A stretch of DNA of 34,336 bases from Desulfuromonadales bacterium (GTDB taxonomy: Bacteria; Desulfobacterota; Desulfuromonadia; Desulfuromonadales; Syntrophotaleaceae), in NCBI GenBank assembly GCA_030613545.1, contig JAUWLU010000009.1, positions 1 to 34,336 on the forward strand, in the 5' to 3' direction. Numbering within the stretch: the first letter of the stretch is position 1; every line of letters starts with the position of its first letter. Position numbers and translations under genes: made by a program. The notes under the pieces were generated by a model. The model saw only the letters and a program-made list of their open reading frames with translations, had not been told where the DNA came from and ran no database searches. Shown in pieces: positions 15,276 to 32,243 of the stretch.

Positions 15276-15280
15276 TTATT

Positions 15281-15430
15281 GATGCTTTCGCAAAAAGTCA
15301 TGAGATGGCTAAGCAAAAATTTCGACTTACAAGGCGTAGTGGTTTTTCAGGGGTGAAGGCATACATATGGTATGTCGAAGTCCTGAAAAAGTGCTGCAAC
15401 GCAGTAGGGCGGACTTTTTGCGACGCCATC
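15281..15430 (+). repeat. MITE-like 150-bp element, copy 3
   Basis: Flanked by the 7-base direct repeat ATTTATT (15274-15280 and 15431-15437), inserted between scpB and rluB within the presumed operon. The left repeat overlaps the first two bases of the rluB start codon. Open in the same 50-codon frame as copies 1, 4 and 6. Confidence 0.9.
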
Positions 15431-15470
15431 ATTTATTACATCCGGTTTTAAGGAAGATATTCGCCGCCCA

Positions 15471-17500: not shown

Positions 17501-17573
17501 AACCTTCCCTAAAAAGAGCTTGACCGCACATTCTAGCAAGTAGCAACAGCTAAGTCAATTTAGCCCTAAGACT

Positions 17574-17723
17574 GATGGACTCGCAAAAAGTCATGTGATG
17601 GCTAAGCAAAAATTTCGATCTACAAGGCGTAGTGGTTTTTCAGGGGTGAAGGCATACATAGGGTATGTCGAAGTCCTGAAAAAACGCTGCAACGCAGTAG
17701 GACGGACTTTTTGCGACGCCATC
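17574..17723 (+). repeat. MITE-like 150-bp element, copy 4
   Basis: Flanked by the direct repeat AAGACT (17568-17573 and 17724-17729), between the DHH-CBS-poly(A) polymerase gene and the M50 protease gene. The first ten bases vary from the other copies (GATGGACTCG instead of GATGCTTTCG) but the length is unchanged. Confidence 0.9.
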
Positions 17724-17764
17724 AAGACTGGGTCTGGGCAATGCGCCATAACAATTCGGCCTGC

Positions 17765-27225: not shown

Positions 27226-27615
27226 TCAGCAAACCCGCGCCACTCCCTCGATCTCCACCAGGGCCTTTTTAGGCAAAGCCGCCACCTGTACCGTGGCCCG
27301 CGCCGGTGCAGCATCGGCGCGAAAATGACGGCCGTAGATTTCATTGACGACGGCAAAATCCTGCAGATCGACAAGATAGATGGTCGTTTTGACTACCGCA
27401 TCGAAATCCAGTCCGGCCGCCTTTAATACCGCACCGATATTGGCCATGACCTGCTCGGCCTGGGCGGCAATCCCCCCCGTCACCAGCTCACCACTGGCGG
27501 CATCAAGAGCGAGCTGGCCGGAAAAAAACAGCCAGTCGCCGACCTTAACCGCCTGGGAATAGGGGCCGATCGCCGCTGGCGCGTCAGATGTGGCAATAAC
27601 CTGTTTGATTGTCAT
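27226..27615 (-). CDS. ridA: RidA family protein (reactive imine deaminase)
   Basis: A 129-residue RidA/YjgF/UK114 protein that should hydrolyse reactive enamine/imine intermediates from threonine and serine dehydration to 2-ketoacids. PAAIGPYSQAVKVGDWLFFSGQLALD and the C-terminal PARATVQVAALPKKALVEIEGVA are complete, including the Arg of PARATVQV that binds the substrate carboxylate and the final Glu. It works as a cytoplasmic trimer. GGGAGG precedes the ATG at 27615. The position after rel, at the end of the yicC-gmk-rpoZ-rel cluster, is common in this bacterial group. Confidence 0.95.
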   Translation of the reverse strand: MTIKQVIATSDAPAAIGPYSQAVKVGDWLFFSGQLALDAASGELVTGGIAAQAEQVMANIGAVLKAAGLDFDAVVKTTIYLVDLQDFAVVNEIYGRHFRADAAPARATVQVAALPKKALVEIEGVARVC

Positions 27616-27719
27616 AGCTCTCCCTCCCATCGCCTGATCACTTAAATACTCAACTGACCGGGTCGCCGATTTTGAGGCAGCTCAGGCTGGTTTTGGCCCC
27701 CTGCCATACACCGCCAATG

Positions 27720-29888
27720 TCAGCCTCGCATCCGCTCGACTTTAAAAACCCCTTTGACCTGTTGCAACGCCTTGGTTATTCGATTGAGATGTTCCCGGTC
27801 CTGCAGGTCGATAGTAAAGACGATCTGGGCCTTGCTATCGTCGGTGGTGTGAACGTTAGCCGAGATGATATTGGCCTCGCAGTTACTCACCTCACCACTG
27901 ATATTGGCCAGGATCCCCTTCTGATCGAGGCAGAATACCCTCACCTTGACCAGATGGGACGACTTTTTCTTCAGATCCCATTCCACCTCGATGCGGCGCT
28001 CGGGATCGCTCTGCAAAACACCGGGACAATCAGCGGCATGCACGGTAATACCACGCCCGCGGGTAATAAAGCCGACCACCGGATCGCCAGGCAGAGGATT
28101 GCAGCACTTGGCGTAACGCACCATGATATCGTCGAGGCCTTGAATCTTGATCGCGCTGGAAGGCTTTTTGTGAATCCGTTCCAGCACCCGGCCGATACGC
28201 CCCTTTTGCTTGGGTGCTTCGGGCTTGAGGCGATCTTCCGGCACGACCCGACCCACCACCTGGCCAAGGGAAAGCTTGCCATAACCGATGGCGGCCAACA
28301 GGTCGTCGCTGGCGTGATAGCCAAGCTCCTCCATGGCGGTCGCCATCTCCGCCGACTGCAGCGCCCGCTTCAGGCTGATACCGTATTTACGCAATCTTTT
28401 TTCGAGGAGTTCCCGACCGAGCAGCAGGCTCTTTTCATGCTGTTCAGTCTTGATCCACTGCCGTATCTTGCTGGCGGCCCGGGACGTCTTGACGAATTTC
28501 AACCAGTCCTTGCTTGGCTGCTGGCTGGTCGAGGTGATGACCTCGACAATGTCACTGCTGTGCAGTTCGGTCTTTAGGGGCACCAGCTTGCCGTTGACCC
28601 GAGCCCCGCTGCAGTGATTGCCGACATCGGTATGAACGCTGTAGGCAAAATCGATGGGTGTGGCCCCCCGCGGAAAAGCTTTAACAGTGCCCTTGGGAGT
28701 GAAGACATAGACTTCATCGGAAAACAGGTCGTCATTGAGAGCCTCCAGCAGGCCGATCTCATCGCTGTCCTCCTGCTGTCCCCCGAGAATCCGCTGCAAG
28801 GAACCTACCTGCTTTTTGGCCTCGGCGGCAGGAGCTGGCCCTGCCTGCTGCTCCTTGTATCGCCAGTGGGCAGCGATCCCCTCTTCGGCGATGCGATGCA
28901 TCTCCTCAGTGCGAATCTGTACCTCCATGCGCTCGCCAAAGGGCCCGATTACCGTCGTATGCAACGACTGATACATATTCGGCTTGGGCATGGCGATAAA
29001 ATCCTTGAACCGCCCGGGAACAGGCTTCCATGCCGCATGAATAACCCCGAGCACCGTATAGCACTCGGGCATGGTCTGCACGATCACACGAAAGGCGATG
29101 AGATCGTAAACTTCGTCGAAGCCGACCTGCTGGCGAACCATCTTGCGATGAATCGAATAGAGATGCTTATAGCGACCGTAGCAGACCCCCTTGATGCCAT
29201 GCCGACCGACTTTCTCCAGGAGCAGCCGCTTTACTTGATCGATGTAGCCGGAGCGATCCTTTTCGTTGCGGGCGACCTTATCCCGCAAATCGAAATAGAT
29301 CTCTGGCATGGCATAGCGCAGGGACAAGTCTTCCATTTCGCATTTCAACCAGCTGACACCGAGACGGTTCGCCAGAGGGGCATAGATTGCCAGGGTCTCT
29401 TTGGCAAAACGCCGCTGCTCGTCCGCGGCGACCTTCTCCATGGTGCGCAGATTGTGCAACCGGTCGGCCAATTGCACCAGAATAATGCGGATATCCCTGG
29501 CCATGGAAAGCAACATCTTGCGAAAGTTTTCGGCCTGCCGTTCTTCCTCTGCGGAGAAGACCAGCTTACGGAGGCTGGCCAGACTCTCGACCAGTTCACC
29601 CACCTCGGCACCGAACTGCTGGCGCAGCGTATCGACATCGACCAGTTGCTGGTCAACGATATCGATGAGCATACCGGCAACAAGGGTCGCCACGTCGGGT
29701 TTAAACCGGATTAGAATGTGAGCGACTTCCACGGCATGGGTCAGGCAGGTTTCGCCGGAATCACGATGCCGACCGCGATAGACCTTGACGCACAAAGCGT
29801 AAGCCTGCCGCAACTGATCGATTTCGGTGGCCGAATGATGATCGAGAAGCTGTTGAATGATGTTTTTAAACTGCTGGGATGGGCGCAT
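27720..29888 (-). CDS. rel: RelA/SpoT (Rel) protein with degenerate hydrolase motif
   Basis: A 722-residue long RSH protein with all domains. The HD hydrolase domain (residues 40-150) keeps His51 and ADRLHN (Asp142, Asn146), but the HDxxED motif reads IDIVDQ at 75-80, losing the metal-binding His and the Glu-Asp pair. The synthetase (about 230-345) looks intact: YGRYKHLYSIHRKM, YDLIAFRVIV with Asp262, RFKD at 293-296, MPKPNMYQSLHTTVIGP, EVQIRT near 322. The C-terminal half has a TGS domain (VYVFTPKGTVKAFPRGATPIDFAYSVH), the zinc-finger/RIS region (YAKCCNPLPGDPVVGF) and an ACT domain. It should make (p)ppGpp from GTP/GDP and ATP on starved ribosomes; hydrolysis is doubtful. Start uncertain (ATG at 29963 also open; neither has a clear ribosome site). 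Confidence 0.92.
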   Translation of the reverse strand: MRPSQQFKNIIQQLLDHHSATEIDQLRQAYALCVKVYRGRHRDSGETCLTHAVEVAHILIRFKPDVATLVAGMLIDIVDQQLVDVDTLRQQFGAEVGELVESLASLRKLVFSAEEERQAENFRKMLLSMARDIRIILVQLADRLHNLRTMEKVAADEQRRFAKETLAIYAPLANRLGVSWLKCEMEDLSLRYAMPEIYFDLRDKVARNEKDRSGYIDQVKRLLLEKVGRHGIKGVCYGRYKHLYSIHRKMVRQQVGFDEVYDLIAFRVIVQTMPECYTVLGVIHAAWKPVPGRFKDFIAMPKPNMYQSLHTTVIGPFGERMEVQIRTEEMHRIAEEGIAAHWRYKEQQAGPAPAAEAKKQVGSLQRILGGQQEDSDEIGLLEALNDDLFSDEVYVFTPKGTVKAFPRGATPIDFAYSVHTDVGNHCSGARVNGKLVPLKTELHSSDIVEVITSTSQQPSKDWLKFVKTSRAASKIRQWIKTEQHEKSLLLGRELLEKRLRKYGISLKRALQSAEMATAMEELGYHASDDLLAAIGYGKLSLGQVVGRVVPEDRLKPEAPKQKGRIGRVLERIHKKPSSAIKIQGLDDIMVRYAKCCNPLPGDPVVGFITRGRGITVHAADCPGVLQSDPERRIEVEWDLKKKSSHLVKVRVFCLDQKGILANISGEVSNCEANIISANVHTTDDSKAQIVFTIDLQDREHLNRITKALQQVKGVFKVERMRG

Positions 29889-29951
29889 GGCAAAGGGCCG
29901 AAGGAGCGGAACCGACTTGAAGATGCGGTACCGCCAGGACGTAAAGAGGAC

Positions 29952-29977
29952 CGGCCGGCACATTGAAGCACCGGCCG
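29952..29977 (-). other. Hairpin in the rel leader
   Basis: CGGCCGG (29952-29958) pairs with CCGGCCG (29971-29977) across a 12-base loop. It lies between the element copy and the rel start, and the loop would contain the alternative ATG at 29963. There is no T-run, so it is not a standard terminator; it could affect rel translation. Confidence 0.3.
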
Positions 29978-29997
29978 AAAAATGTAAGATCAGTTTT

Positions 29998-30146
29998 GAT
30001 GTTTTCGCAAAAAATCATGGGATGGCTAAGCAAAACTTTCGGTCTACAAGGCGTAGTGTTTTTCAGGGGTGAAGGCATACCTAGGGTATGTCGAGGTCCT
30101 GAAAAAACGCTGCAACGCAGTAGGGCGGACTTTTTGCGACGCCATC
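29998..30146 (+). repeat. MITE-like 150-bp element, copy 5 (149 bp)
   Basis: This copy has lost one G in the GTAGTGG segment, which breaks the 50-codon frame. Flanks are AGTTTT (29992-29997) and AGCTTTT (30147-30153), an imperfect direct repeat that suggests an older insertion. It lies between rpoZ and rel, and its last two bases form part of the rpoZ stop codon. Confidence 0.88.
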
Positions 30147-30351
30147 AGCTTTTGCTGATGGGGATCTCGTAGTCAACCTTGCCGGCGGCAACTTCCCGCA
30201 GGCCGAGGACGATCTTTTTATTGTTGCTTTTGTTCTCAATCAGCGGGTTAGCGCCCTTATAGAGCTGCTTGGTACGCTTGGCCGCAACCATAACGAGCAG
30301 AAAACGGTTGGGAATCTGCTTCAAACAATCTTCTACCGTGATACGTGCCAT
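30145..30351 (-). CDS. rpoZ: RNA polymerase omega subunit
   Basis: A 68-residue omega subunit. [33 protein letters not shown] is the conserved core that wraps the beta-prime C-terminus; [17 protein letters not shown] completes it. It helps assemble RNA polymerase and can contribute to a (p)ppGpp binding site, which fits its position next to rel and gmk. The C-terminus ends [11 protein letters not shown]. The TGA stop is made of one base from the flank and two from the element, so the present 3' end of the gene lies exactly at an insertion. Confidence 0.95.
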
Positions 30352-30430: not shown

Positions 30431-31048
30431 TCAACGGCCTATTTCACCGAAAAGTCGCTGCACCTGGTCCTTCAAAATCTCGGTCCGGCAAGCCGCTGCC
30501 ACCAGGATGGCCTGCAGCTGCCGACTGGCCAGATCGAAGTCGTCGTTGATCACCAGATAATCATACCAGAACATTTCGCGCATCTCGATCCGAGCATTGC
30601 GCAGCCGTTGTTCAATGACTTCAGCGGCGTCCGTCTGCCGCCCTTTCAGTCGTCGCTCCAACTCCTGAAAAGAGGGCGGCAACACAAAGATGAAAATGGC
30701 ATCGGGGCAGCGTTCCTTAAGCTGAGCAGCCCCCTGGCAATCGATCTCGAGCAACAGATCGCAACCGGCGTCACGCACTTCTTCCAGACTGGCAAGGGCT
30801 GTTCCGTAACGATTGCCATGCACCAGCGCCCATTCGGCAAAGGCGCTGTCGGCCACCATGGCATCGAACTCGGCGTTGGAAACGAAATGATAATCCCGAC
30901 CGTCTACTTCCCCCACTCGGGGCGGACGGGTCGTATGGGAGACAGAGTGCCGCAGATTGGGTAAAATGTCAATTATCGCCTTACAAAGCGATGTTTTACC
31001 GGCCCCGGAGGGTGCGGATATTACATAAAGAAGACCTCTACGCTGCAT
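30431..31048 (-). CDS. gmk: Guanylate kinase
   Basis: A 205-residue enzyme that converts GMP to GDP with ATP. The P-loop SAPSGAGKTSLC is at about residues 11-22. SVSHTTRPPRVGEVDGRDYHFVS is the GMP-binding lid, and EWALVHGNRYGT and LEIDCQGAAQLKE follow. Guanylate kinase supplies the GDP/GTP that Rel uses, consistent with the conserved gmk-rpoZ-rel order. I chose ATG at 31048 with AGGA upstream over a GTG six bases earlier. Confidence 0.97.
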   Translation of the reverse strand: MQRRGLLYVISAPSGAGKTSLCKAIIDILPNLRHSVSHTTRPPRVGEVDGRDYHFVSNAEFDAMVADSAFAEWALVHGNRYGTALASLEEVRDAGCDLLLEIDCQGAAQLKERCPDAIFIFVLPPSFQELERRLKGRQTDAAEVIEQRLRNARIEMREMFWYDYLVINDDFDLASRQLQAILVAAACRTEILKDQVQRLFGEIGR

Positions 31049-31073
31049 AATCACTTCCTGTGATACGGCTGTA

Positions 31074-31172: not shown

Positions 31173-32051
31173 TTATTCGATATTCTGCACCTGCTCGCGG
31201 ATCTTTTCCAGTTCCGCCTTGATCGCCACCACCTGACGGGTCAATTCGACATCATTCGATTTGGAACCCATGGTGTTGGTTTCACGGTTCAGTTCCTGTA
31301 GCAGAAAATCCATCTGCCGGCCGACGGGTTCGTCGCTCTCGAGGAGCGTAGCAAACTGCTGCAGGTGACTTTTGAAGCGCGTCAGTTCTTCGCTGATGTC
31401 ACAACGGTCGGCAAATAGAGCGACTTCCTGCGCCACCCGCTGGGGATCGAACTCAAAACCCTTCTCCAGCCGTGCAAGGCGCTCCTGCAGCTTCAGCCGC
31501 CATTCCTGCGGAATCAGCGGCGCCCTCTGGGCCGCCCCGGTCAGCAGGCTCTCCAGGGTTGTGAAGCGCTCGTCCATATCCTGCCGGGTTGCCGTCCCTT
31601 CTGCCAGGCGCATGCCCTCAACAGCAGACAGGGCTTTGTCGAGTGCGGCCTCCAGGCAGTGGCGCACATCCTCCACGGCCGGCTCGGCCTCCTTGAGGGT
31701 AATCACATCCTTTTGCGCTGCCAGCAACTGCACGCTGACCCCACCGGTCAATTCGAAGGTACGCTCCATGCCTTCAAGCAACTGCAGATAATTATCCGCC
31801 AGAGCGCGGTTGAGTACCGGCACCTTGTCGGCATCGGAGGCGAAATCGAGGTTGACATAGACATCGATGCGCCCCCGTTTGAGCCGTGCCCCGACCTGTT
31901 TGCGCACCTCCCCTTCCAGGACCATCAGGGTACGGGGCACCTTGACAGTGACATCGCCATAGCGATGATTGACCGATTTAACTTCCACGGTGAGGGAGAT
32001 ATCGTTGCGTGAGGCCTGGCCCTTGCCATAGCCGGTCATGCTTTTAATCAT
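31173..32051 (-). CDS. yicC: YicC family endoribonuclease
   Basis: A 292-residue YicC/YloC protein. IKSMTGYGKG is the signature N-terminus, followed by EVKSVNHRYGDVTVKVPRTL, VRKQVGARLKRGRIDVYVNL and the C-terminal PVGRQMDFLLQELNRETNTMGSKSNDVELTRQVVAIKAELEKIREQVQNIE, which is near-universal in the family. YicC has been described as an endoribonuclease acting on small RNAs in E. coli. AAAGGA precedes the ATG. It heads the yicC-gmk-rpoZ-rel run; element copy 6 is inserted 28 bases upstream of its start. Confidence 0.93.
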   Translation of the reverse strand: MIKSMTGYGKGQASRNDISLTVEVKSVNHRYGDVTVKVPRTLMVLEGEVRKQVGARLKRGRIDVYVNLDFASDADKVPVLNRALADNYLQLLEGMERTFELTGGVSVQLLAAQKDVITLKEAEPAVEDVRHCLEAALDKALSAVEGMRLAEGTATRQDMDERFTTLESLLTGAAQRAPLIPQEWRLKLQERLARLEKGFEFDPQRVAQEVALFADRCDISEELTRFKSHLQQFATLLESDEPVGRQMDFLLQELNRETNTMGSKSNDVELTRQVVAIKAELEKIREQVQNIE

Positions 32052-32078
32052 GGATAATCCTTTGTCCGGTTAAATATT

Positions 32079-32228
32079 AATGCTTTCGCAAAAAGTCATG
32101 AGATGGCTAAGCAAAAATTTCGACCTACAAGGCGTAGTGGTTTTTCAGGGGTGAAGGCATACATATGGTATGCCGAAGTCCTGAAAAAGCGCTGCAACGC
32201 AGTAGGGTGGACTTTTTGCGACGCCATC
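32079..32228 (+). repeat. MITE-like 150-bp element, copy 6
   Basis: Flanked by the 7-base direct repeat AAATATT (32072-32078 and 32229-32235), between gmhB and yicC. The first base is A instead of G. The central hairpin is strongest here: GGCATAC and GTATGCC pair over 5 bases. Open in the 50-codon frame. Confidence 0.9.
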
Positions 32229-32243
32229 AAATATTGGGCGTCT

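Follow-up and report, generated by a model that had tools for sequence, protein, structure and literature searches.

A Rel protein with a degraded hydrolase domain and a short hydrolase-type RSH form a predicted complementary pair in the Desulfuromonadales

The division of roles between RelA and SpoT is generally described as an event of the Beta- and Gammaproteobacteria. RelA[hS] of these groups combines a dead HD domain with intact synthetase, TGS, zinc-finger and ACT domains and leaves hydrolysis to a partner; its synthetase carries an EXDD motif, and the E. coli enzyme has, relative to the Rel studied here, two 3-residue insertions in the region between HD helices 6 and 7. A regulatory role has been shown for the E. 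coli RelA pseudo-hydrolase (PMC8012599). The converse arrangement, an intact HD domain with a dead synthetase, is found in SpoT[Hs] of the Moraxellaceae, including A. baumannii SpoT (PDB 7qpr; PMC9974481), which is paired with a hydrolase-dead synthetase, and the RelA and SpoT of this family are described as completely subfunctionalised (PMC3153485; PMC9974481). A. baumannii SpoT truncated of its C-terminal domains loses most of its activity (PMC9974481). Small alarmone hydrolases (SAH, Mesh1) are dedicated HD_4 hydrolases. In addition, Atkinson et al. (2011; PMC3153485) list divergent second long RSH copies of uncertain origin as RshD[HS]; the four delta-proteobacterial genomes that carry them include that of Pelobacter carbinolicus, which belongs to the same NCBI order as the bacterium studied here.

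The window, i.e., the whole stretch of DNA analysed, comprises 34,336 nucleotides of a Desulfuromonadales bacterium whose genome (2.85 Mb, 403 contigs) is 99.98% complete. All window features given below lie on the minus strand. The rel gene (27720..29963; TIGR00691, 684 bits) encodes a long RSH protein with an HD domain that is a putative pseudo-hydrolase, followed by synthetase, TGS, AH/RIS and ACT domains. Translation from the ATG ending at 29963 gives 747 aa and from the ATG ending at 29888 gives 722 aa; the latter is likely the true start, at which the relatives also begin. The HD_4 domain (29355..29804) appeared degraded as judged from its profile match, residues and dN/dS. A sequence-only reading of this DNA had pointed out IDIVDQ at residues 75-80 in place of HDxxED, with His51 and ADRLHN kept, and translation and alignment located the hexapeptide exactly there in the 722-aa protein (29649..29666), while the alignment bore out both His51 (29736..29738; RelSeq H53 equivalent) and ADRLHN (29451..29468; D144 and N148 equivalents). 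At the hydrolase positions, which we take to be R44, H53, H77, D78, E81, D82, D144 and N148 in RelSeq numbering, alignment to Rel, RelA, SpoT and the second RSH of the genome gave RHIDDQDN for the window Rel versus RHHDEDDN; the equivalents of H77, E81 and D82 are altered, with Asp standing at position 81.

The remainder of the protein is well preserved. The RelA_SpoT synthetase domain (28845..29177; profile match and residues) has every motif residue intact, including RFKD (29001..29012), the RXKD motif. The TGS His (28632..28634), also kept by alignment, matches the residue that contacts the tRNA 3'-CCA in Rel/RelA, a role described in PMC9974481 and PMC13376610. The window Rel has the full HD, synthetase, TGS, RIS and ACT architecture of bifunctional Rel[HS] and lacks the intact HD residues by which such an enzyme is recognised. 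Its HD helices persist in the structure prediction. Identity to class Rels was 51% in the HD and 72% in the synthetase domain, and the intact Rels of Desulfuromonadales showed 74-78% in both. Like RelA[hS], the window Rel would join a dead HD domain to intact synthetase, TGS, zinc-finger and ACT domains and rely on a hydrolysing partner, but it carries RFKD where RelA has EXDD and is without the extended loop of E. coli RelA. In a tree without any RelA row, it groups with the other Rels of its order, in a clade sister to the class, which indirectly argues against descent from the Beta/Gammaproteobacterial duplication that gave rise to RelA.

The gene order, ridA-rel-rpoZ-gmk-yicC, was as the same reading had claimed in placing rel within a yicC-gmk-rpoZ cluster. 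Upstream are rpoZ (RNA polymerase omega; 30145..30351), gmk (guanylate kinase; 30431..31054) and a yicC family gene (31173..32051), and downstream is a ridA/YjgF family gene (27226..27630), which is also there in G005, a family genome with the same order. The gmk-rpoZ cluster of E. coli holds spoT, whereas the present one holds the synthetase Rel, so that the positions are mirrored. An interspersed repeat of about 155 bases was also observed in the window (29990-30155, 32077-32236, 17573-17724, 15279-15431 and 24-176; 90-93% identity), one copy of which sits between rpoZ and rel; genome-wide, there are at least 40 scored copies and 248 first-look candidates.

A compensating enzyme, for which the sequence-only reading had proposed to search the genome, was found as a second long-type RSH with an intact HDVVED and an apparently dead synthetase. 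Since exactly two HD_4 and two RelA_SpoT matches exceeded the family cut-offs, no stand-alone small alarmone hydrolase or synthetase was found above these cut-offs in the genome, and a separate small alarmone hydrolase was ruled out. The second protein, hereafter the short RSH (481 aa; G000:C226:3506-4951, minus strand), was assigned an HD-pseudosynthetase-TGS layout from profile matches and alignment. Its HD domain reads FHPL...HDVVED...WDRMDN, with all eight hydrolase positions intact, and its synthetase domain is degenerate (33.6 bits versus 146 for Rel), having replacements at the Asp of YDLIAFR, the Glu of MEVQIRT, the GRxKH loop and RFKD (KLRD). All eight HD residues were kept in 48/48 short RSHs and the synthetase residues in 0/48. 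The protein stops after TGS, the C-terminal HEL, zinc-finger (ZFD) and ACT/RRM domains being missing; the TGS His is retained, and contact with tRNA through it is possible. A structure model built from 14 sequences was confident over HD and poor over TGS, and its best matches were B. subtilis Rel and the hydrolase-only A. baumannii SpoT, with the small hydrolases far behind.

The short RSH thus resembles SpoT[Hs] of the Moraxellaceae in its intact HD, dead synthetase and pairing with a predicted hydrolase-dead synthetase. It differs in ending shortly after TGS at 481 aa, compared with about 700 aa in A. baumannii SpoT, and in keeping the TGS His that the latter has lost, while from SAH and Mesh1 it is distinguished by the added pseudo-synthetase and TGS. 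Because A. baumannii SpoT needs its C-terminal domains for full hydrolysis, the activity of the short RSH, from which they are missing, could be low or differently controlled. With regard to RshD, the likeness is that of a divergent second long RSH; however, RshD was classed as [HS] in four genomes, and the accessible text of that work does not describe synthetase loss or decay of the partner Rel, whereas the short RSH is order-wide and predicted to be hydrolase-only. Near the short RSH, SbcD/SbcC-like exonuclease/ATPase genes and a UbiE-like methyltransferase gene, all named by eye, occur in both the window's genome and G005 (L236, L237), so that part of the neighbourhood is shared within the family. 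A divergent DksA/TraR-like zinc-finger ORF, also named by eye, adjoins the short RSH in G005 (L237:7183-7671, minus strand) and is not at that place in the window's genome.

Judging from these residues, the window Rel and the short RSH are a complementary pair, in which the HD domain of Rel would be unable to hydrolyse (p)ppGpp and that of the short RSH would do so. We consider it very likely that (p)ppGpp synthesis, regulated by the ribosome, is the sole activity of the window Rel, that its HD domain is a pseudo-hydrolase, and that the short RSH removes (p)ppGpp.

The distribution of the two proteins bears on this assignment. Searches with the short RSH as query gave two classes of matches, short RSHs at 64-100% identity and ordinary Rels at 32-36%. 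Among Desulfuromonadales genomes at least 90% complete, the short RSH was present in 86/88, including two fragments at contig ends that account for its seeming absence from G054 and G062; it was not found in G052, a 470-contig MAG with a decayed Rel. It occurred in none of 112 genomes from other families of the class, nor outside Desulfuromonadales among 296 genomes sampled from the phylum. At least one of six core HD residues was lost in 57 of 86 Desulfuromonadales Rels, in many differing combinations. No such loss was seen in 38 class Rels from outside the order, without the short RSH, in a sample that was part top-scoring and part hand-chosen, or in 23 single-RSH Rels from elsewhere in the phylum, a set of best matches rather than a random one. 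The RFKD motif was present as the sequence-only reading had stated, but as a mark of a bifunctional enzyme it did not hold, since every scored synthetase motif residue, RFKD included, was kept in all 122 readable class Rels, hydrolase-dead or not. In about a third of the order, the Rel HD domain is intact alongside the short RSH, and therefore the split is not obligatory. When the intact or decayed state was mapped by parsimony on a Rel tree built without the HD columns, with regain permitted, at least eight state changes were counted for the six core residues, nine with all eight residues, and seven if loss of two or more was required.

It might be supposed that the short RSH acts on another nucleotide and that an unrelated enzyme, e.g., a Nudix hydrolase, clears (p)ppGpp. 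HD_4 enzymes with other substrates do occur among the PDB matches, namely human MESH1, which acts on NADPH, and a (p)ppApp hydrolase, and the C-terminal domains are absent from the protein. The short RSH, however, has the domain layout of a long RSH as far as TGS, it resembles Rel and hydrolase-only SpoT more than the small hydrolases, and its distribution coincides with the decay of the Rel hydrolase, so that we regard such a role as very improbable. In within-genus comparisons by a simple counting method, in which the pairs are not independent, median dN(HD)/dS and dN(SYN)/dS were 0.068 versus 0.015 for decayed Rels (ratio 5.8) and 0.050 versus 0.032 for intact Rels of the order, with 0.024 versus 0.034 for class relatives without the short RSH (ratio 0.8) and 0.118 versus 0.020 for the window's own genus. 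The decayed HD domain is relaxed yet far from neutral, which fits the expectation for a regulatory pseudo-hydrolase. The earlier proposal that the hydrolase was lost and the synthetase kept is supported at the sequence level by the residues, by recurrence in relatives and by this domain-specific relaxation.

In three other genomes of the window's genus, the motif reads IDIVDQ, IDMVDQ and VDIVDQ, and in the sister genus H53 and D78 are gone as well. The two remaining genera of the family read HDILQQ or HDILQE with AERLH, and E81, D82 and D144 are missing there. Both the short RSH and a decayed Rel are carried by G005, which is a single contig of 3,665,893 bases, and the pair is present in the cultured type strain Malonomonas rubra DSM 5091, whose Rel reads NHHDEEDD. 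The Rel of G021 is divided between two frames (442 and 403 aa) that overlap, through a frameshift or an assembly error.

These data also allow us to weigh whether the altered HD domain of the window Rel could retain useful (p)ppGpp hydrolysis, with Asp substituting for Glu and the metal site completed by other residues. The equivalents of H53, D78, D144 and N148 are kept, the change at position 81 is from Glu to Asp, and the domain is still under purifying selection (dN/dS of about 0.12 in the genus). Against this, Ile or Val occupies the metal-ligand position H77 in the genus and Gln replaces D82, the additional loss of H53 and D78 in the sister genus fits a path of drift rather than a rewired site, and a pseudo-hydrolase with a regulatory effect on synthesis would be just as likely to show residual constraint (PMC8012599); we judge useful hydrolysis by this domain to be very improbable. 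An error of sequencing or assembly, for which the 403 contigs of this metagenome-derived genome might speak, has a negligible chance of explaining the motif and was ruled out, because the rel frame is open over 747 codons and the loss is common to independent genomes of the genus and family, including the single-contig G010 and G005; the IDIVDQ change is real and inherited, being carried by relatives in the same genus.

In the proposed mechanism, the window Rel would sense deacylated tRNA on the ribosome and then make (p)ppGpp, a mode of sensing that is most likely in view of the retained TGS His and C-terminal domains. The alarmone would be broken down by the short RSH, itself presumably without synthetase activity. 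The order-wide presence of this short hydrolase may have let the hydrolase of Rel decay repeatedly, and the HD fold was probably retained to regulate the synthetase, as in RelA.

Similar divisions were observed elsewhere in the phylum. Nine other families pair a second long RSH, whose HD is intact and whose synthetase is destroyed, with a Rel of decayed HD and intact synthetase; f33, f55, f80, f87, f91 and f104 share one kind of second copy, and f40, f63 and f96 another. In G471 (f52; L222, L209), hydrolase and synthetase residues are intact in both long RSHs, and thus a second copy by itself does not imply decay. The second RSH of G471 groups with a Bacteroidota Rel and could stem from transfer or contamination. 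The second copies cluster in one tree on very long branches, for which the tree program issued a long-branch warning, and the short RSH has a very long stem and shifts position once the other second copies are omitted, so that the three kinds may have one origin or several. Derivation of the short RSH by duplication of the order's own Rel was disfavoured (AU p = 0.0145), on a tree with that very long stem and unstable position. Taken together, it is probable that fixation of a hydrolase-only RSH at the base of the Desulfuromonadales relaxed selection on the Rel hydrolase, with at least eight independent losses, that two further Desulfobacterota family sets reached the same split, and that this division of labour is repeatable without an RXKD to EXDD switch.

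The system differs from the known RelA/SpoT pairs in its RFKD motif, shorter HD loop, mirrored locus, truncated hydrolase and number of repeats. No prior description of this pair was found in the open literature on relGsu, RshD and hydrolase-only or synthetase-only RSHs, although priority is not certain. For roughly two thirds of the order, to annotate these genes as bifunctional Rel is probably a mistake. The Desulfobacterota appear to present a repeat of the split in which every stage is extant, from an intact Rel beside a short hydrolase through single-residue losses to a fully decayed HD domain. They would therefore offer a natural gradation in which to ask why a dead HD domain persists under purifying selection even as its catalytic residues are lost, one that also bears on the link of RXKD/EXDD to the loss of hydrolysis, to which it shows no tie here, and on the control of a hydrolase without C-terminal domains.
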